From a virus: a stretch of DNA of 23,998 nt. The notes beneath the pieces are model-generated. The model ran no database searches. It saw only the letters and a program-made list of their open reading frames with translations, and was not told the origin of the DNA. Positions within the stretch are counted from its first letter, which is position 1. Each line of letters starts with the position of its first letter. This document shows positions 3,312 to 14,925 of this stretch, piece by piece. The DNA is taken from positions 1 to 23,998 of IMG/VR virus record IMGVR_UViG_3300025138_000350. One strand, 5' to 3'. The translations under genes and the position numbers were made by a program.

Positions 3312-4223
3312 ATGGCTATTTCTCGCGCACAATTAGCGAAAGAGCTAGAACCCGGCCTTAATGCTCTATTTGGGTTGGAATATGATCGTTACGAAAACGA
3401 ACATTCTGAAATCTTTGAAGAAGAGTCCTCGGACAGAGCTTTTGAAGAAGAAGTAATGCTCGGCGGTTTCTCTACTGCACCTGTTAAAAGCGAAGGTGGT
3501 ACTATTAGCTTTGACGATGCACAAGAGACTTACACTGCTCGTTACACTCATGACACTATCGCTTTAGCATTCTCAATTACTGAGGAAGCTATTGAAGATA
3601 ACCTATATGATCGTCTTGCATCTCGCTATACGAAAGCTTTGGCTCGTTCCATGGCTCAGACTAAGCAGATTAAAGCGGCGGCTATTCTTAACAATGCCTT
3701 TATCGCCACTGGCGGTTTTGCGCAAGGTGACGGAAAAGCTTTATGCGCAAATGATCATCCATCTCTGTCTGGTAATCAAACCAACCTGCTAGCTACTCCG
3801 GCTGACCTCAACGAGACTTCTCTTGAGCAGATGCTGATTGAAATTGCAGGTATGACTGATGAGCGTGGTCTTAAAATTGCTGTACAAGGTACAAAGTTAG
3901 TTATTCCAAAAGAACTGCAATTTATTGCAGAGCGAGTACTTAACTCTAACCTGCGTTCAGGAACTGCGGACAACGATAACAATGCGATGAAAAATATGGG
4001 AATGTTGCCTGACGGCGCAGTGGTTAACCACTTCCTTACTGATTCTGATGCATACTTCATCAAAACTGACGCACCTAACGGGTTCAAATACTTCAACCGT
4101 TCGCCAATTAAAACGGCAATGGAAGGAGACTTTGACACTGGAAATATGCGCTTTAAGGCTCGCGAAAGATATTCTTTCGGTGTGTCTGATTGGCGTTCTG
4201 TTTTCGGTACTCCCGGCGCATAA
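3312..4223 (+). CDS. Major capsid protein, HK97 fold (Mu gpT-like)
   Basis: A 303-residue protein that forms the icosahedral shell. It resembles the Mu major head subunit gpT type of HK97-fold coat proteins. The N-terminal arm (about 1-60) is acidic and helical. A beta-hinge/E-loop-like part contains FDDAQETYTARYTHDTIALAF. A long helix carries RYTKALARSMAQTKQIKAAA. The C-terminal part holds FKARERYSFGVSDWRSVFG, close to the conserved end of gpT-like proteins. There is no N-terminal prohead-protease delta domain of the usual size, consistent with a separate scaffold upstream. The co-chaperonin in the same transcription unit is a plausible folding partner. The gene has the best SD in the window and is followed directly by an intrinsic terminator, both typical of the most expressed late gene. 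Confidence 0.88.
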   Translation: MAISRAQLAKELEPGLNALFGLEYDRYENEHSEIFEEESSDRAFEEEVMLGGFSTAPVKSEGGTISFDDAQETYTARYTHDTIALAFSITEEAIEDNLYDRLASRYTKALARSMAQTKQIKAAAILNNAFIATGGFAQGDGKALCANDHPSLSGNQTNLLATPADLNETSLEQMLIEIAGMTDERGLKIAVQGTKLVIPKELQFIAERVLNSNLRSGTADNDNNAMKNMGMLPDGAVVNHFLTDSDAYFIKTDAPNGFKYFNRSPIKTAMEGDFDTGNMRFKARERYSFGVSDWRSVFGTPGA

Positions 4224-4955: not shown

Positions 4956-4981
4956 AAGGGGCGCCCTGCGTCCCTTTGTTT
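4956..4981 (+). terminator. Weak terminator or attenuator hairpin between two virion genes
   Basis: AAGGGGCGC (4956-4964) pairs with GCGTCCCTT (4968-4976) through a CCT loop: eight Watson-Crick pairs plus one G-U. It is followed by an interrupted U-tract, TTTGTTT, to 4981. It sits 14 bases after the upstream stop and ends just before the AGGAG (4984-4988) of the next gene. Partial termination or mRNA 3'-end protection would both fit. Confidence 0.55.
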
Positions 4982-4994
4982 CTAGGAGAAATTT

Positions 4995-5399
4995 ATGGCA
5001 GATACGGTAGCAACACAAATTTTAAGCGATGGGCCAAAATATACTGTCTTAAAGTTTACCAATGTGTCTGATGGAACGGGAGAATCTGCTGTTGTTAAGG
5101 TAGATGTTTCTGCGTTAAATCTTAGTGCAGATGGTAACGCTTGTACTGGCGTTGTTATAGAAAAAATGTGGTGGCAATGCATAGGAATGAAAGTGCAAAT
5201 CCTTTGGAATGCTAGTACAAACTTGTTTTGTATAGAACTTGGTGAAAATCAAAGCGGGCATCACGATTATTCTGTTTTTGGTGGTCTTGTAAACAACTCC
5301 GGCAGTGGAAAAAACGGCGATGTTCTTTTTACAACCGTTGGACATTCTAATACAGACACTTACACTGTAATTATGTATCTACGAAAGAAATTTGATTAG
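4995..5399 (+). CDS. Small beta-rich virion protein, unknown position
   Basis: A 134-residue protein predicted as a single beta-domain, with strands such as KYTVLKFTNVS, SAVVKVDVSAL and the final TYTVIMYLRKKFD. I recall the pattern T-x-T-V-x-x-x-L-R-K near the C-terminus from small structural proteins of marine T4-like and T7-like phages. It has a paired-Trp strand, VIEKMWWQCIGMKVQILW, but no catalytic motif and no membrane segment. AGGAG lies at 4984-4988, directly behind a hairpin that may lower expression relative to the gene upstream. A capsid- or neck-associated role is likely from synteny but not shown. Confidence 0.7.
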   Translation: MADTVATQILSDGPKYTVLKFTNVSDGTGESAVVKVDVSALNLSADGNACTGVVIEKMWWQCIGMKVQILWNASTNLFCIELGENQSGHHDYSVFGGLVNNSGSGKNGDVLFTTVGHSNTDTYTVIMYLRKKFD

Positions 5400-5404
5400 T
5401 AGTT

Positions 5405-5689
5405 ATGGCTACAACAAAAGACGCAAAAAGGTTACCTTCGGGGCGTATTAGCTACCGGGGGGAAACCTTTGCCGGATATAACAAACCTAAGAAAACCCCT
5501 AAAAAATCTAAAAAAAGCGCAGTGTTGGCTAAAAAAGGCAACGAAATCAAGCTTGTTCGTTTTGGCGACCCCAACATGAGCATCAAAAAAGATCAACCAA
5601 AAAGAAGAAGCAACTTTCGAGCTCGGCACAGTTGTGACACAGCAAAAGACAAATTTTCTGCAAGATACTGGTCTTGTAAAGCGTGGTAG
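5405..5689 (+). CDS. Small basic protein ending in RARHSCD...YWSCKAW (DUF5872/DUF6321-like)
   Basis: A 94-residue basic protein. Residues 1-30 carry RLPSGRISYRGETFAGYNKP, followed by a Lys/Pro-rich linker. The C-terminal block has FGDPNMSIKKD, RRSNFRARHSCDTAKDKFS and ARYWSCKAW. That C-terminal signature occurs, as far as I recall, in small uncharacterised proteins of marine T4-like phages and bacteria (DUF5872/DUF6321-type families; the exact accession should be checked). Two Cys and one His (H75, C77, C91) in the block could bind a metal, but the number of ligands is low. No clear SD is visible and the ATG follows the upstream stop by 5 bases, so translation is probably coupled. Function unknown; nucleic-acid or capsid contact is suggested only by charge. 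Confidence 0.75.
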   Translation: MATTKDAKRLPSGRISYRGETFAGYNKPKKTPKKSKKSAVLAKKGNEIKLVRFGDPNMSIKKDQPKRRSNFRARHSCDTAKDKFSARYWSCKAW

Positions 5690-5690
5690 C

Positions 5691-6290
5691 ATGACTCCTG
5701 AATTTTATACTTTTGGCATAGAAAAAAACATATGTGATGAGATTAGAGCATGGTCCGCAGAAGTCGTGGAAAAGCCTAATCCTTTTTTTAATAACATGCC
5801 GTCATGCCCTTTTGCTAGAAAATCATGGCAAGATGGAAAAATATCTATACTTTTTAAGAAAGATGGTGGTTTTCAAGATTTATATACAGCTATTAGTTGT
5901 TTTAACGACGAACTAGATATTGTTATATTAGTTGATTTGCATTTCCAAGAAAATGCTGATTTATTTCATGAATATTTAGAAGATTTAAACACGCAAATAT
6001 CTGCGGGTATGTTTATAGATCAAGATATATGGTTAATGGGCTTTCATCCGGATGATGATGAAAATGAGTTCATTGACGATAGTACTTTTTTGAATGTAAT
6101 CGAAAAAGAATATGCTATTATCTTTGTGCAAAGACTTTCTAAACTGCAAGAAGCGGCAGACAAGATTGCAAAAAAAGGATATTATGATAAGTATTTTCAA
6201 GAGTACAATGCGAAAGAAATTTTTAACAAAAGAGAGATTTTTAATAGGAGATTGAAAAATGGCTATGAAACCAAAGAAAAAACCAGTTAA
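5691..6290 (+). CDS. Acidic protein of unknown function, AT-rich accessory-like gene
   Basis: A 199-residue acidic protein that I cannot assign to a family. The best landmark is NPFFNNMPSCPFARKSWQDG near residues 29-48, then a hydrophobic strand DIVILVDLHF and an acidic middle (FHPDDDENEFIDD). The C-terminus is a charged helix (LQEAADKIAKKGYYDKYFQ, NKREIFNRRLKNG). I chose ATG 5691, one base after the preceding stop. A GTG at 5634 in the same frame would add 19 residues but overlaps the conserved end of the previous gene by 56 bases and has no SD. The gene looks more AT-rich than its neighbours and interrupts a run of basic virion peptides, so it may be a later insertion (moron-like). The single Cys in PSCPFAR could be functional, but nothing proves an enzyme. 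Confidence 0.72.
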   Translation: MTPEFYTFGIEKNICDEIRAWSAEVVEKPNPFFNNMPSCPFARKSWQDGKISILFKKDGGFQDLYTAISCFNDELDIVILVDLHFQENADLFHEYLEDLNTQISAGMFIDQDIWLMGFHPDDDENEFIDDSTFLNVIEKEYAIIFVQRLSKLQEAADKIAKKGYYDKYFQEYNAKEIFNKREIFNRRLKNGYETKEKTS

Positions 6291-6378
6291 AAAAATGCGA
6301 ATGGGTGGACCCGGAGGCTCTGTAAAACGCATGAGAGCCGGAGGTGCCTCCGGAGTTAAAAAAAGGAAAAAGAAATAA
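6259..6378 (+). CDS. Very basic 39-residue peptide, unknown function
   Basis: The ATG at 6259 has AGGAG at 6246-6250 with good spacing, and the stop is TAA 6376-6378. The product has 12 Lys and 4 Arg in 39 residues and no acidic residue. It is built of a Lys-rich head (MAMKPKKKPVKK), a short MRxGG-type repeat (MRMGGPGG, MRAGGASG) and a KKRKKK tail. The start lies 32 bases inside the previous gene in another frame, and the stop overlaps the next ATG (TAATG). The repeated K-x-M-R-x-G-G pattern recalls tiny basic proteins of marine phages. It could be a DNA- or RNA-binding virion peptide; this is inference from charge. Confidence 0.65.
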   Translation: MAMKPKKKPVKKMRMGGPGGSVKRMRAGGASGVKKRKKK

Positions 6379-6551
6379 TGCCCGGTAAGAAAAAAGGACT
6401 TTACGCCAATATTCACGCTAAAAGAGCCCGTATAAAAGCCGGTTCTAAAGAAAAAATGCGGAAACCCGGAGCAAAAGGTGCACCAACGGCGAAAGCTTTT
6501 AAAAATTCAGCTAAAACGGCAAAAAAAACACCCGTCAAACAAAAAAAATAG
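6378..6551 (+). CDS. Conserved very basic 57-residue phage protein (LYANIHAKR family)
   Basis: The ATG at 6378 overlaps the preceding stop, and TAG ends at 6551. The 57-residue product has 17 Lys, 3 Arg and one acidic residue. Its core GLYANIHAKRARIKAG, followed by KMRKPGAKGAP, is a pattern I know from small proteins conserved in T4-like cyanophages and other marine phages, usually annotated as hypothetical. The Lys/Ala tail (AKAFKNSAKTAKKTPVKQKK) resembles the disordered tails of histone H1-like proteins. The gene stands directly before the head-tail adaptor gene. A structural or DNA-condensing role is possible, but no function is established to my knowledge. Confidence 0.78.
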   Translation: MPGKKKGLYANIHAKRARIKAGSKEKMRKPGAKGAPTAKAFKNSAKTAKKTPVKQKK

Positions 6552-6560
6552 GTTTGTAAC

Positions 6561-7226
6561 ATGGCTGTTTCCGGAAGCACCGATTTTGAACTCGATGTTA
6601 CAGAGTACATCGAGGAAGCGTTTGAGCGTTGCGGCTTAGAAGTTCGCACGGGCTACGATTTAAAAACAGCAAAGCGATCCTTAAATTTATTGCTTGCAGA
6701 ATGGGCCAATCGTGGTCTAAATGCATGGACAATTAAACAAAATACACAAGCTTTAGTTGCTGAAGACGGGCTTTACACCTTAAACGCCAATATTATTGAT
6801 GTTTTATCTGTGGTCTGTCGAAGAGACGGAACAGATTATGCTCTTGAACGGCTCAGTAGAGACGAGTTCTTGTCAATTCCGAACAAAACGACGACGGGTC
6901 GACCTAATCAATTTTTCTTAGATCGTTTAACAACGCCTGTTTTAAAACTTTGGCCAATTCCAGAAAACGCTACAGATGTAATCATCTACGATGCTCTTAC
7001 ACGCATCGATGATGCAGATACTCCGACTAATACTCTTGCTGTTCCTTTTAGATTTTACCCCTGTTTAGCCGCCGGCTTGGCTTACTACATTGCTATTAAA
7101 AGAGCTCCTAATCGAATACAACTTCTAAAAGGTTTGTATGATGAGGAATTTGATAGAGCTATGTCAGAAGACCGCGATCGAGCGTCTTTTAATGTTGTTC
7201 CTGCACAGTCATACCATAGGAGCTAA
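6561..7226 (+). CDS. Head-tail adaptor-like protein (P22 gp4-type position)
   Basis: A 221-residue protein with features shared by podovirus head-completion/adaptor proteins. These are an N-terminal helix pair containing YIEEAFERCGLEVRTGYD, then KRSLNLLLAEWANRGLNAWT, followed by GRPNQFFLDR and KLWPIP, and a C-terminal helix pair (PCLAAGLAYYIAIKRAPNR, YDEEFDRAMSEDRDRASF). This combination is frequent in marine podovirus-like contigs and is placed between capsid and tail genes. The adaptor would bind the portal ring and receive the nozzle. SD is weak (AGG at 6550-6552), and the gene follows the basic-peptide genes by nine bases. Exact equivalence to P22 gp4 is inferred from position and pattern. 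Confidence 0.72.
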   Translation: MAVSGSTDFELDVTEYIEEAFERCGLEVRTGYDLKTAKRSLNLLLAEWANRGLNAWTIKQNTQALVAEDGLYTLNANIIDVLSVVCRRDGTDYALERLSRDEFLSIPNKTTTGRPNQFFLDRLTTPVLKLWPIPENATDVIIYDALTRIDDADTPTNTLAVPFRFYPCLAAGLAYYIAIKRAPNRIQLLKGLYDEEFDRAMSEDRDRASFNVVPAQSYHRS

Positions 7227-9222: not shown

Positions 9223-12200
9223 ATGGCTAGTACATATACTACTAATACAGGAATAGAAAAACCGGGTACGGGCGAACAATCGGGTACTTGGGGTGATACT
9301 ACAAACACTAATTTCGATATTATCGATCAGGCTACTAATGGAATTGTATCCATTACGCTCAGTGCCACGGGATCTACGGGTTCTCCTAATGATTTACCTA
9401 TTACAAATGGTGCTTTGTCCAACGGTCGTAATCGCTTTATAGAATTTGTAGATGGTGGTGATATCGGCGGTACGGTTTATGTGCAATTGTCTCCCAATGA
9501 TGCTGAAAAAGTAGTCCACGTTAGAAACAGTTTGTCCGGTTCGCGATCCATATTAATATTCCAAGGCACTTACAATTCTAGTAACGATTTTGAGCTTGTA
9601 GCCGGGAAAGATTACACCCTTAAATTTGACGGTGGTGGCTCTGGGGCTACCGTAACGGACGTTAACAACAATTTAACGGTTACCGCGCTAGATGCGGGGA
9701 CGGTGGAGTTCGATTCTTTATCCGGGACAGGATCTGTTGCAGTTACAGACATCGTTGATGAAGACAACATGTCCTCTAACAGTGCTACTAAGTTAGCCAC
9801 CCAACAATCTATTAAAGCTTATGTTGATGCTCAAGTAGGAACAGTTGATACGCTTACAGAAATCTTGGCTAACGGTAACACAACAGCTACAGATCAAAAA
9901 ATACAGTTTCGTGATAGTGCTATATTTATAAATTCTAGCGCCGATGGTCAGCTAGACATAGTAGCTGATACAGAAATCCAAATAGCCGCTACAACAATTG
10001 ATATTAACGGCGCAATTAACGCTAGTGGTGAAATTATTGCCGCTAGTTTGGATATTAGTGGAAACATAGATGTTGATGGTACAACTAATCTAGACGTTGT
10101 AGATATAGATGGTGCTGTTGATATGGCGACTACACTTACCGTTGCCGGTAATGTAGATTTTAATGGTGACTTAGATGTTGATGGTACAACTAATCTAGAT
10201 GTTGTAGATATTGATGGCGCTGTTGACATGGCGACTACACTTACCGTTGCCGGTAATGTAGATTTTAATGGTGACTTAGATGTTGACGGCACTACAAATT
10301 TGGATGTTGTAGATATAGATGGCGCTGTTGATATGGCTTCTACGTTGACTCTAGCGGGCAATGCAGACTTTAATGGTGATTTAGACGTAGACGGTACAAT
10401 AGAATTCGATGCCCTATCTGGCACAGGGTCTGTTGCGGTTACAGACATTGCTGATGAAGATAACATGTCTTCTAACAGCGCAACTAAGCTTGCTACTCAG
10501 CAATCTATTAAGGCTTATGTAGACTCACAGGTTGGAACGGTTGATACCCTCGCTGAGATTTTGGCTAATGGTAATACTACTGGATCAACTGATATAGAAG
10601 TAACTTCCGCACAGAAAGTTCAATTCCGTGATTCAGCTATTTACATAAATTCTAGCACTGATGGACAGTTAGACATTGTTGCAGACACTGAGATTCAGAT
10701 AGCGGCTACAACCATTGATATTAATGGAGCTATCAACGCAAGCGGTGAGATTATCGCGGCCTCTTTAGATATTAGCGGCAACATAGACGTAGACGGCACA
10801 ACTAACCTTGATGTCGTGGACATCGATGGTGCTGTAGATATGGCTTCAACGCTTACTGTTGCAGGAGCTGTTACTGGTTCTAGTAGCTTTGCAACTGCGG
10901 CAGGAGGAACATTTACTACAGCATCTGGCAACGACTTAAACATTGTATATCCTGATTCTCGTTCATTATTTTTTAAAGAAGGCTCAACCACTACTCTTAC
11001 TCTGGACAATGCTCAAGGCGCTACATTCGCAGGGGATGTCACAATTCCTAGTAATATTATCCATGCAGGTGATACAAACACCTTTTTTGGATTTCACAGT
11101 AGTGATTTATTTAGAGTTACAACTGGTGGCGTAGGTAGGTTTGAAGTAAGTGATAGTGCTGTAATTATTAATGATTCTAGCCAAGACATGGACTTCAGAG
11201 TTGAGTCAAACGGCAACGCTAATATGCTGTTTGTGGATGGTGGTAATAATCGGGTTGGCGTGGGCACTGGGTCAGCGTTAGAGGTTTTACATGTTGCAGA
11301 CTCTAATCCAGTGGTAACAGTTTCTTCAACTAGCGTTGACCAAGCTATAAGATTGGAGCTTTATGAGCAGAAAAATGGCACAGCAGATTTAGGTGGTTTT
11401 TTTGAATACTCAGGGGCAAGTGCAAATTCATTACTTATAGGAACAACGCTTAACAGCACGGACACTACCCATATTACTTTACCAAGAGATGGCAGTGGTG
11501 CGGCTACGTTTAATTCTAGTGTGACTGTAGGTGGCGGAATAAGTATGCCCACCTCTATAAATCACGTAGGAGATACTGATACTAACTTTGGATTTCCTCA
11601 AAATGACCACATTAATTTTACAACTAATAATTTAGAAAGACTTAGATTATCTCCTGACTATACTGTATTTAATGATACAGGTGCAGACACTAACTTTATA
11701 GTTGAGTCTAGTGGTAATACGGCAATGCTGTTTGTTGATGGTGGTGAAGACCATGTAAACATCGGTACAACTTCTGATTTTGGAGATACCTTTAACGTAT
11801 CTGGCGCAGGACATTTTACTGCTAATGTAACATTATCACGACAAAGCAACGATACAGGCTCTACAGGTTTAGCTCTTGAAAAAACAAGAAGCACTTCTGT
11901 AAATGGTAACACTGTTGTACAAAACGGGGACCAATTAGGTTATGTAGCCTTCCGTGGAAATGATGGCGACCAGTTTATAGACGGAGCTTACGTTATTAGT
12001 TTTGTTGACGGTACTCCGGGCAATAATGATATGCCCACTAGTTTGCAATTCTGGACAACGGCAGATGGAGCAAGCTCACCTACTTCACGATTCCAAATAG
12101 CCGCAGACGGCTCTCTATCCACCCCAACCGCAGGAACCTCTAACGTCCGATTCGGTGTCAACGCAGGTAACAGCATTGCAAGCGGTGGTAATCACAATGT

Positions 12201-14925
12201 TTTTATAGGCGATGAAGCAGGTACTGCAATTACTACTGGTTTCCAAAATGTAGCAGTTGGTTATTTAGCATTAGATGCAGAAGATACAGGTGGCAGAAGC
12301 GTTGCCGTGGGTATGCAAGCGTTGTCATCACAAAATAATGACGCATCAAATTACAACACAGCAGTAGGTTACAACGCAGGTCTATCAGTAACCACAGGTC
12401 AATACAACACTCTTATTGGCGGTGATGCAGGTGATGCTTTAACCACAGGCGGCTCAAATGTTGCTATAGGTTATTTTGCTCTTTCCTCAGAAGATGCTCA
12501 TGGTCTTAACGTGGCTGTAGGTAATAGAGCTTTAGGGAATCAAAACGCAGGAACAAATGCTTACAACACTGCTGTTGGTAATGACGCAGGTCTATCAGTA
12601 ACCACAGGCGTAAAAAACATTCTCATAGGTGGTTTAGCAGGTGATGCAATTACAGATGCTGACGGTAATGCGGCTATGGGTCATTCTGCACTGTCTTCAA
12701 ATGTTCTTGGAAGCTACAGCGTAGCAATTGGTTTTAGAGCTTTAAATAATCAAAATCCTGTAGATGGTAGCGGAAACGCCACAGCCGTTGATATGTACAA
12801 CACCGCTATTGGAACAGATGCAGGAACCTCAGTAACCGTAGGCACTGAAAACACAATTATAGGTGCTTTAGCAGGTGATGCCTTAACTAACTCAGATAGA
12901 AACGTAGCATTAGGATCATCCGCTTTAGGCGCTGAAATATTAGGTCAGTACAGTACAGCCATTGGTTGGAACGCTTTAGGCGTACAATCAAACAGCAGTG
13001 CGACAAATGCTCTTAATACCGCAGTAGGATATAACGCAGGTGCGGCAGTAAGCACAGGCACACAAAATACCATTATGGGAGGTTTAGCGGCTGATGCTTT
13101 GGACATAGGAGCAGAAAATGTTGTTATTGGTTATAACGCTTTAACAGATTCTCAAGAAAGCATAGGCAATGTAATTATTGGACATGAGGCAGGTGGTAAT
13201 TTAGCCGATGGCGATAGTAATGTTGCTGTAGGTAAATTGGCTTTATACGGTGGAAGTAGTGCAAACTCTTCAAACAATGTCGCTATTGGCGCACAGGCAC
13301 TAAGACTTACTACAACAGGAGGTAACAATGTTGGTGTAGGGCATACGGCAGGTAAAGCTACTACAACAGGTCATAGTAATGTAGCTATTGGTTATGAATC
13401 ATTGCTTACTGAAGATACAGGAAGAAAAAATGTAGCAGTAGGGTTTGAAACTTTAAAAGTTCAAAACTCTGATGTAGATAATTACAACACGGCAGTGGGT
13501 TATCAGGCAGGTGTTGCTGTAACAGAAGGCGTACAAAACACGCTTATCGGTGCTTCAGCAGGTGACCATTTAGCCCATGCAGACTTTAACGTGGCTGTTG
13601 GGTACGGTGCATTAGATGCTGATACACAAGGAAGTAAATCAACAGCTATTGGAAAAAGTTCTTTAACTAATCAAAACTATAGTTCTGCAACAGATTCTCA
13701 TAATACAGCCGTAGGTTTTCATTCTGGTCTTGCAATAACTACAGGTGTCCGCAACACTTATGTAGGGTCTTTAGTAGGCGATAGCACAACAGATGCTGAC
13801 TTTAACGTAGCCGTTGGTTTTAATGCTTTAAGTTCAAATGTATTAGGTAGTAAGTCAGTAGCAGTAGGAACAGATTGTTTAACAGCGCAAAAACCTGTAG
13901 ATGGTAACGGAGATGACGTAGCTACTGATATGTTTAACACTGCTATGGGCTTTCAGGCAGGAGTAGCAGTAAGCACAGGCGTTCAAAATACCATTATTGG
14001 TGCTTTAGCAGGTGATGCCCTGACAGATGCTGATAACAATGTTGCTATGGGTTACTCTGCTTTAACAACAAATATCTTAGGCTCAGAAAGTGTAGCGATT
14101 GGTACATTTGCTTTAAACTCTCAAAATCCTGCATCAGCAACAAATATGTACAACGTAGCTGTAGGTCATAACTCTGGAGCCGCAATAACCACAGGCATTA
14201 AAAACACCTTCATTGGTGGTCTTGCAGGTGATCTGACTGATGATGGTGGGGAAAATGTTGCAATTGGATATCAGGCGCTATCAGCAAACTGTGAAGATGA
14301 AAATACTGCTTGTGGTTCTATAGCCCTTAGTGTTGCTACTGGCGCATCAAATACAGGGATTGGTAGAGCCGCAGGTTTTCAAATCACATCAGGGTCTAAT
14401 AATATAGCAATTGGACTCGATGCTCTGAGAACAGGAAGCCCCGGAGGCGCACAAACTACTGCGTCTAATAAGATTGGATTGGGTGATGAAAGAATTACTT
14501 CTGCACATATTCAAGTAGATTGGACAGTAGCCTCTGATGCAAGAGACAAGACAGACTTTACATCCCTAGACCTTGGCTTAGAGTTTGTTAAAGACTTGCA
14601 ACCTGTAACCTACAAGTGGGACAAGCGTTCTAAGTATGGTGACAAGACTGCTGATGGTTATGACCTTAACGCACAATCTCCAGATGGAACCCACAAAGAA
14701 GATTGGTTGGATATAGGTTTCAAAGCTCAAGAAGTTGAAGCCCTAGAAATTGCCGCAGGTTACAACAAAGACAACAAAACTAATCTAGTCTCTAGCCACA
14801 CTGAAGACGGTAAGCAGATGGGTCTACAGTACAGCAAGTTTGTACCAATCCTAGTCAAAGCCATCCAAGAACAACAAGCCTTGATTGAAGCATTAACCGC
14901 ACGAATAGAAACCTTAGAAGGATAA
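9223..14925 (+). CDS. Giant tail fibre / receptor-binding protein with YadA-like repeats and S74 self-cleaving chaperone domain
   Basis: A 1900-residue mosaic fibre, much longer than most podovirus fibres. Residues 1-150 begin MASTYTTNTGIEKPGTGEQS and probably attach the fibre to the virion. Residues 162-301 and 394-540 are two copies of one block. Three 35-residue tandem repeats (DVDGTTNLDVVDIDGAVDM...) occupy 283-387. Residues 541-970 are beta-rich with two FVDGG elements, in LFVDGGNNRVGVGT and LFVDGGEDHVNIGT. Residues 974-1742 are YadA/Hep_Hag-like repeats (NTAVGYNAG, NVAIGYxAL, SVAVGxxAL), expected to form a trimeric left-handed beta-roll. Residues 1771-1900 are a peptidase S74 intramolecular chaperone; SDARDK places S1771 and K1776 as the expected Ser/Lys dyad, with cleavage before S1771. 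The last 30 residues are a coiled coil. The fibre should trimerise, use the C-terminal domain for folding and then release it. SD is weak (GAGGC). Confidence 0.88.
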   Translation: MASTYTTNTGIEKPGTGEQSGTWGDTTNTNFDIIDQATNGIVSITLSATGSTGSPNDLPITNGALSNGRNRFIEFVDGGDIGGTVYVQLSPNDAEKVVHVRNSLSGSRSILIFQGTYNSSNDFELVAGKDYTLKFDGGGSGATVTDVNNNLTVTALDAGTVEFDSLSGTGSVAVTDIVDEDNMSSNSATKLATQQSIKAYVDAQVGTVDTLTEILANGNTTATDQKIQFRDSAIFINSSADGQLDIVADTEIQIAATTIDINGAINASGEIIAASLDISGNIDVDGTTNLDVVDIDGAVDMATTLTVAGNVDFNGDLDVDGTTNLDVVDIDGAVDMATTLTVAGNVDFNGDLDVDGTTNLDVVDIDGAVDMASTLTLAGNADFNGDLDVDGTIEFDALSGTGSVAVTDIADEDNMSSNSATKLATQQSIKAYVDSQVGTVDTLAEILANGNTTGSTDIEVTSAQKVQFRDSAIYINSSTDGQLDIVADTEIQIAATTIDINGAINASGEIIAASLDISGNIDVDGTTNLDVVDIDGAVDMASTLTVAGAVTGSSSFATAAGGTFTTASGNDLNIVYPDSRSLFFKEGSTTTLTLDNAQGATFAGDVTIPSNIIHAGDTNTFFGFHSSDLFRVTTGGVGRFEVSDSAVIINDSSQDMDFRVESNGNANMLFVDGGNNRVGVGTGSALEVLHVADSNPVVTVSSTSVDQAIRLELYEQKNGTADLGGFFEYSGASANSLLIGTTLNSTDTTHITLPRDGSGAATFNSSVTVGGGISMPTSINHVGDTDTNFGFPQNDHINFTTNNLERLRLSPDYTVFNDTGADTNFIVESSGNTAMLFVDGGEDHVNIGTTSDFGDTFNVSGAGHFTANVTLSRQSNDTGSTGLALEKTRSTSVNGNTVVQNGDQLGYVAFRGNDGDQFIDGAYVISFVDGTPGNNDMPTSLQFWTTADGASSPTSRFQIAADGSLSTPTAGTSNVRFGVNAGNSIASGGNHNVFIGDEAGTAITTGFQNVAVGYLALDAEDTGGRSVAVGMQALSSQNNDASNYNTAVGYNAGLSVTTGQYNTLIGGDAGDALTTGGSNVAIGYFALSSEDAHGLNVAVGNRALGNQNAGTNAYNTAVGNDAGLSVTTGVKNILIGGLAGDAITDADGNAAMGHSALSSNVLGSYSVAIGFRALNNQNPVDGSGNATAVDMYNTAIGTDAGTSVTVGTENTIIGALAGDALTNSDRNVALGSSALGAEILGQYSTAIGWNALGVQSNSSATNALNTAVGYNAGAAVSTGTQNTIMGGLAADALDIGAENVVIGYNALTDSQESIGNVIIGHEAGGNLADGDSNVAVGKLALYGGSSANSSNNVAIGAQALRLTTTGGNNVGVGHTAGKATTTGHSNVAIGYESLLTEDTGRKNVAVGFETLKVQNSDVDNYNTAVGYQAGVAVTEGVQNTLIGASAGDHLAHADFNVAVGYGALDADTQGSKSTAIGKSSLTNQNYSSATDSHNTAVGFHSGLAITTGVRNTYVGSLVGDSTTDADFNVAVGFNALSSNVLGSKSVAVGTDCLTAQKPVDGNGDDVATDMFNTAMGFQAGVAVSTGVQNTIIGALAGDALTDADNNVAMGYSALTTNILGSESVAIGTFALNSQNPASATNMYNVAVGHNSGAAITTGIKNTFIGGLAGDLTDDGGENVAIGYQALSANCEDENTACGSIALSVATGASNTGIGRAAGFQITSGSNNIAIGLDALRTGSPGGAQTTASNKIGLGDERITSAHIQVDWTVASDARDKTDFTSLDLGLEFVKDLQPVTYKWDKRSKYGDKTADGYDLNAQSPDGTHKEDWLDIGFKAQEVEALEIAAGYNKDNKTNLVSSHTEDGKQMGLQYSKFVPILVKAIQEQQALIEALTARIETLEG
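9706..10842 (+). repeat. Large internal duplication in the fibre gene
   Basis: The block at 9706-10125 (residues 162-301) recurs at 10402-10842 (residues 394-540). Both contain SLSGTGSVAVTDI or its near match, NMSSNSATKLATQQSIKAYV and DGQLDIVADTEIQIAATTID. The proteins are almost identical, apart from a seven-residue insertion in the second copy (DIEVTSAQ region), while the codons differ at many third positions. The space between the copies holds the 105-base tandem repeats. Confidence 0.85.
10069..10383 (+). repeat. Three tandem 105-base repeats in the fibre gene
   Basis: Units start at 10069, 10174 and 10279, each encoding 35 residues beginning DVDGTTNLDVVDIDGAVDM and continuing [AS]TLT[VL]AGN[VA]DFNGDL. 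By my count units 1 and 2 differ at 4 of 105 bases, all in third codon positions; unit 3 is more diverged. A truncated unit starts at 10384 (DVDGT), and another DVDGTTNL unit recurs at 10786. Confidence 0.88.
12142..14448 (+). repeat. YadA/Hep_Hag-like beta-roll repeat region of the fibre
   Basis: Residues 974-1742 repeat short motifs of the form N-x-A-[VIM]-G-x-x-[AS]-[GL]. They are arranged in super-units whose NTA/NVA starts fall at residues 1045, 1115, 1193, 1265, 1422, 1494, 1572 and 1644. The spacings are 70, 78, 72, 157, 72, 78 and 72. The 78-residue units carry an insertion resembling PVDGxGxxxAxDM. YadA-type heads form trimeric left-handed beta-rolls that bind surfaces. Confidence 0.82.
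14533..14550 (+). other. Predicted S74 autocleavage site in the fibre
   Basis: These codons give SDARDK, residues 1771-1776. In peptidase S74 intramolecular chaperones the Ser starting this motif and the Lys five residues later form the self-cleavage dyad, and the cut is just before the Ser. Cleavage here would release a 130-residue C-terminal chaperone from a 1770-residue mature fibre. Confidence 0.75.

Follow-up and report, generated by a model that had tools for sequence, protein, structure and literature searches.

AglA, an enzyme of argolaphos biosynthesis, is a heme-thiolate protein of the YqcI/YcgG family that hydroxylates a guanidine nitrogen and has Cys44 as the heme ligand (PMC12866846). 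Its authors reported no DALI neighbour above Z 5.4 (PMC12866846). The YqcI/YcgG enzymes as described act on free or small-molecule arginine, not on peptides. Among phages, the closest described relatives of the gene considered here are gp66 of HMO-2011 and gp78 of CRP-345. In both, a basic M-R-G-G peptide directly follows this gene and a p94 homologue lies upstream, as in the window. A search of the open literature found no description of these small basic phage proteins.

The locus between the head genes and the adaptor

The window is the whole stretch of DNA analysed, 23,998 bases in length, and corresponds to the IMG/VR record IMGVR_UViG_3300025138_000350. The closest relatives of its capsid and adaptor genes are found in the HTVC023P/HTVC027P-type pelagiphages, DSL-LC04, 023Pt_psg01 and the roseophages CRP-901/902. 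The features of the locus are as follows.

3312..4223, + strand: major capsid protein (MCP), given as context
4995..5399, + strand: p134, a conserved gene that follows the head genes and marks the upstream limit of the site; CRP-901/902 have a homologue
5405..5689, + strand: p94, 94 aa, stand-alone basic domain (27 K+R, 7 D+E, net +20); phrog_7595 / phrog_9979; often upstream of p199
5691..6290, + strand: p199, acidic, 199 aa from ATG (23 K+R, 37 D+E, net -14); predicted AglA (YqcI/YcgG)-like fold; Cys39 (codon 5805-5807) in a CP[FY]A motif; phrog_28122
6246..6250, + strand: AGGAG, candidate ribosome-binding site of p39, read from the sequence; within the p199 gene, 8 nt before the p39 ATG
6259..6378, + strand: p39, basic, 39 aa (16 K+R, 0 D+E, net +16); two M-R-x-G-G units; putative p199 partner or substrate
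6378..6551, + strand: p57, small basic protein, 57 aa (20 K+R, 1 D+E, net +19); KGLYANIHAKRxRI family (phrog_16028); a neighbour, not an obligate member of the pair
6561..7226, + strand: head-to-tail adaptor (Pfam SU10_adaptor), which marks the downstream limit of the site

The three basic proteins and the acidic one listed in the initial annotation are all present as ORFs on the + strand, and the composition count agrees with the 16 basic and no acidic residues it gave for the 39-residue peptide. The p94 stop is at 5689 and the p199 start at 5691; p39 starts 32 nt inside p199, the p39 stop and the p57 start share one base, and 9 nt separate p57 from the adaptor gene. No terminator-like site was found in 5000-6700, and the stretch from p134 to the adaptor is one packed + strand run. 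The four ORFs are genes rather than chance, given the constraint on p94 (dN ~0.03-0.1, with synonymous sites saturated) and on p57 (dN/dS ~0.1), the PHROG profile matches of p94 (phrog_7595, E 5.9e-21), p199 (phrog_28122, E 1.3e-21) and p57 (phrog_16028, E 4.8e-26), and the recurrence of a p39-type peptide beside p199 in more than 150 loci. Since p199 homologues begin at the equivalent of the ATG at 5691, the longer GTG ORF (5634) is not the gene.

Several other features of the window were observed. A strong terminator-like hairpin of 9 pairs (4956-4976) lies directly 3' of the gene for the 198-aa head protein, before the p134-adaptor run. A GroES-like co-chaperonin is encoded upstream of the head genes (795-1289), where CRP-901/902 and DSL-LC04 have an annotated GroES. 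The stretch 9223-14925 encodes a protein of 1900 aa; its long repeats are NTAVGYNAG-like and DLDVDGTTNLDVVDIDGAVDM-like, and its C-terminal region resembles a tail-fibre intramolecular chaperone.

Some 80 related viral contigs have p94 placed between head genes and adaptor, and the interval from p94 to p199 usually holds extra small genes, two of them basic (phrog_27331, phrog_23735). Of 100 distinct loci fetched through p94 or p199, 19 have p94 but no p199, and CRP-2 carries a p94 homologue without p199 in another module. The C-terminal part of ICP1 gp125, an annotated capsid protease, shares 45% identity with p94 over 82 residues. This domain (phrog_9979) is fused to the protease in ICP1 and free-standing in the window; by sequence, p94 is a stand-alone copy of it. 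The p57 gene is present only in a minority of the related loci. The family to which it belongs was seen in ~75 phage records, chiefly of cyano- and pelagiphages, and extends to T7-like podoviruses; in both neighbourhoods read it lies near genes for the capsid and a gp11-like tail tube. The phrog_16028 proteins of cyano- and pelagi-podoviruses resemble p57 in sequence and in their placing by capsid and gp11/adaptor-type genes; unlike the window, these two neighbourhoods had no p199 homologue annotated or seen.

The initial annotation had proposed that the four genes form one system, a virion nucleoid in which protamine-like basic peptides condense the genome and an acidic protein keeps them soluble. 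With p57 missing from most related loci and p94 found without p199, there is no co-occurring set of four, and the system as a unit is ruled out. What stands of that proposal is the link of p199 to a tiny basic peptide, found in several unrelated phage contexts. In DSL-LC04 and HTVC023P, other small basic proteins occupy the same head-neck site; this, together with the variability of the four-gene set, marks the site as a recurrent home of small basic late proteins. Both p94 and p57 would be neighbouring basic head-module proteins outside the enzyme-peptide pair.

Genome condensation by the basic peptides, taken apart from the four-gene set, draws on their small size and strongly basic composition, on the recurrence of small basic proteins of several unrelated families at the head-neck site, and on the basic proteins associated with packaged DNA of PBCV-1 (PMC3281028). 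The same source states that no evidence exists for basic proteins adding much to the neutralisation of phage dsDNA (PMC3281028), which counts against it, and a peptide of charge +16 would by arithmetic be needed in ~7,000 copies to neutralise a 55-kb genome. That the four genes are not a co-occurring set tells against it as well. Such a role is improbable.

Two kinds of basic domain, the p57 type and the RRKSFCAR...RRRWKC type (DSL-LC04; L098 4564-4848), match the same longer profiles, phrog_11180 and phrog_28131, at different positions, and small basic proteins of this sort therefore behave like interchangeable domains. A 225-240 aa protein starting with MPYLQS(N/S)IP is encoded in this region of relatives without p199 (L030 7104-7781; L215 downstream of p199); a similar protein of HTVC023P at the same site is annotated as PurM. 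A PDB sequence search with p199, p94 and p57 returned nothing meaningful.

The conserved pair of p199 and an arginine-repeat peptide

The conserved unit of the locus is the pair p199 and p39. A basic M-R-(x)-G-G peptide directly follows p199 in 154 of 170 loci, these being distinct loci, not independent evolutionary events, obtained via p94 or p199 queries. Such a peptide follows the control genes in 0/100 cases for MCP, 0/39 for p198, 0/39 for p134, 0/121 for the adaptor, 0/109 for p100 and 22/142 for p94. Its start codon mostly overlaps the p199 stop by 9-19 nt.

The pair was found in three types of context: the HTVC023P-type head-neck site, the HMO-2011/CRP-345-type region, and contigs of bacterial MAGs, which look phage-derived. 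The HMO-2011-type phages differ from the window in that their pair lies not in the capsid-adaptor interval but near lysis and terminase genes, which it adjoins in HMO-2011 and CRP-345. The M-R-G-G peptide was sought and found absent by the S-SSM7 homologue (the most distant phage one) and in some HMO-type loci. In CRP-810, an annotated 2OG-Fe(II) oxygenase gene overlaps the p199 homologue, and the basic peptide that comes after the homologue is of a different kind. The ORF following the cyanobacterial p199 homologues of Dolichospermum and Limnofasciculus (L250 3971-5338 and L251 3974-5347) is one we take to be a PhyH-type 2OG dioxygenase. No phage genes are visible nearby, and the homologue with this ORF possibly constitutes a small biosynthetic unit. 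On a Myxococcales MAG contig (L248 3432-4667), a p199 homologue and a basic peptide occur together with the basic RRKSFCAR peptide and a YPSAYA peptide, as in marine phages.

The variety of contexts bears on whether the pair has a virion role at all. As a moron, it would be cargo at a variable insertion site and act on the host, for instance through an RGG-like peptide binding host RNA or ribosomes. The content between the cement-like genes and the adaptor does vary widely among relatives, and the HMO-2011-type phages carry the pair in other modules. In the lineage of the window, however, the pair lies inside an uninterrupted late gene run, and 81 of 100 distinct p94-adaptor loci retain it there, a count biased by the fetching of loci through p94 or p199. 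Host-directed cargo is given a low probability.

The residue linked to p199 is arginine. Among loci again obtained via p94 or p199 queries, 17 of the 19 same-site relatives that lack p199 keep GG-repeat basic peptides, the repeats of which are mostly M-K-x-G-G or M-A-x-G-G; one M-R unit occurs in five of these relatives and two M-R units in none. The association of arginine with p199 at the same site has a Fisher p of 2e-8 for unique peptides and 4e-20 for units, with no phylogenetic correction. Since GG is kept in the relatives without p199 and arginine is not, it is arginine that goes with p199. Two scans of IMG/VR DNA, which used narrow patterns not seeded by p199 and are free of the p94/p199 query bias, gave the same picture. 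Of the 92 distinct loci with three M-R-G-G units among the matches listed, 88 had p199 no more than 900 nt upstream, and three M-K-x-G-G units had it upstream in 4 of 16 (Fisher p 1e-9, kinship ignored, the 88/92 again being among the matches listed). The Arg-repeat loci fetched, among the matches listed, included 75 with p199 and capsid or adaptor genes nearby and 30 with p199 and neither of these on the stretch. Across the peptides compared, arginine in the repeats depends on the presence of p199. This Arg-for-Lys switch offers a direct handle on the function of p199. For genome condensation it is a further difficulty: arginine rather than lysine mainly where p199 is present would not be expected of a general polycation.

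The main rival to an enzymatic role makes p199 an acidic protein without catalytic activity, a binder or assembly chaperone with specificity for the RGG-like repeats, which would bring the peptide to the portal, the neck or the packaged DNA. It accounts for the pairing equally well: p199 with its net charge of -14 is tightly paired with a highly basic peptide, its gene lies between head and adaptor, and arginine-specific binding would equally explain the arginine dependence. On the other side, the invariant Trp, Cys-Pro-x-Ala, Asn, Gln and Tyr of p199 look like an active or cofactor site, not a charge surface, both models find their best structural match in an enzyme, and p199 homologues adjoin oxygenases in CRP-810 and the two cyanobacteria. 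A purely binding function of p199 is regarded as rather unlikely.

Predicted fold of p199 and a candidate mechanism

The Trp, Cys-Pro-x-Ala, Asn, Gln and Tyr positions of p199 are invariant across its phage and cyanobacterial homologues, and Cys39 is invariant in every homologue aligned. The AF2 model of p199 (pLDDT 80, pTM 0.80) was compared by VIA-align, in which five AglA entries took ranks 1-5 with Z 7.2-6.9 and 163 residues aligned, the top value being below 8, the level where fold similarity is safe; the next match had 4.9. For a cyanobacterial homologue with 24% identity, the model (pLDDT 85, pTM 0.78) placed the same five entries first (Z 7.2-6.7; next 4.6). Foldseek alone against the PDB gave no significant match for either model, and AglA was not among its best matches. 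Owing to the Z below 8 and to AglA being missed by Foldseek alone, the likeness to the AglA 'sandwich' fold is suggestive rather than established; the predicted fold of p199 appears closest to AglA. A BFVD search with the p199 model gave three uncharacterised homologues at E < 0.001.

Profile comparison points in the same direction weakly. The hhalign comparison of p199 with 11 YqcI/YcgG proteins had a probability of 10% and P 0.003; its score of 27 exceeded those of 15 column shuffles, which reached at most 19. In the profile alignment, consistent with the structural ranges, Cys39 is in register with the AglA heme ligand Cys44. No Pfam match to PF08892 (YqcI/YcgG) was found among 43 p199 homologues or in the window. 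DUF1415 (PF07209), which has the CPFA motif region in common with p199 and is itself uncharacterised, matches 22 of the 43 family members (best E 1.4e-5); p199 of the window scores 14.2 bits, under the 26-bit cut-off. One YqcI protein matches DUF1415 weakly (0.042). The literature search on DUF1415 found it mentioned only in unrelated work, and an NCBIfam search gave no informative match.

The acidic partner of the initial annotation, which was to keep basic peptides soluble, is not borne out by these models: with its invariant Cys, p199 resembles an enzyme in fold rather than a charge-neutralising chaperone. An invariant Cys together with a near-invariant His could also suit a protease or other hydrolase that cuts the peptide at Gly-Gly sites, and the Met-x-Gly-Gly-x of the peptide resembles the adenovirus proteinase site. 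The His is, however, missing in S-SSM7, no protease fold appears among the structural matches, and GG, unlike arginine, is kept in relatives without p199. A hydrolase is thus very improbable, and the protease reading was rejected on the lack of His conservation and of a protease fold.

The reading preferred here is that p199 and p39 form a two-gene cassette in which p199 is a heme-thiolate protein of the AglA kind. Cys39 would ligate heme as the corresponding Cys does in AglA, and p199 would recognise p39 and N-hydroxylate or otherwise oxidise the arginines in its M-R-(x)-G-G repeats. The basic peptide, once modified, would then function late in infection, with the head or neck as its likeliest place, given that the cassette lies between capsid and adaptor genes in this lineage. 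That p199 binds heme and is catalytic, what precisely it does to the peptide, and where the peptide acts, its virion role included, are all inferred. The pairing, its recurrence in different contexts, the arginine dependence, the invariance of Cys39, the predicted fold closest to AglA and the oxygenase neighbours speak for this cassette. Against it speak the missing PF08892 match, the weak profile comparison, the low Z of 7.2, the absence of AglA from the best Foldseek matches, the fact that a shared fold does not show function, the small-molecule substrates of the described YqcI/YcgG enzymes, the lack of ferrochelatase and ferredoxin in the contigs searched, and the loci without an M-R-G-G peptide. 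Taken together, oxidation of p39 by p199 is put forward tentatively, as a possibility that falls somewhat short of an even chance. The wider statement that widespread marine phages encode a heme-thiolate enzyme oxidising the arginines of a dedicated RGG-repeat peptide bound for the virion head or neck is more doubtful still, and is unlikely in this full form.

Heme and electrons for such an enzyme would have to be supplied by the host, as a search of 13 long contigs from these lineages turned up neither ferrochelatase nor ferredoxin. Two 2OG oxygenases were present in one of these contigs. In other HTVC023P-type phages, ferrochelatases adjoin 2OG oxygenases (PMC9599517).

Comparison with RiPP systems and AglA

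Should the chemistry proposed here prove mistaken, p199 and its RGG peptide still make up an enzyme-like/peptide unit that is common in abundant ocean phages, has not been described and lends itself to experiment. To our knowledge, a viral peptide-arginine hydroxylation system has no precedent. If the proposal is true, a phage makes a post-translational arginine modification on its own structural or late peptide.

The pair differs from RiPP systems, with their multi-core precursor and tailoring enzyme, in belonging to a phage late module and in having no recognisable leader, protease or exporter. It resembles them in that a short repetitive peptide is genetically linked to an enzyme-like gene, p199 being putatively an enzyme; the arginine dependence is suggestive of modified core residues. 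Compared with AglA and the YqcI/YcgG proteins (PF08892), p199 is shorter, phage-borne and devoid of a Pfam-level match, and its partner is a ribosomal peptide, not a small molecule. In common are a suggestive likeness in predicted fold over ~150-163 residues, an invariant Cys in register with Cys44 and a link to arginine. Should the proposal hold, the class of thiolate-heme enzymes, so far described in the literature consulted only for small-molecule biosynthesis, would gain a peptide substrate.
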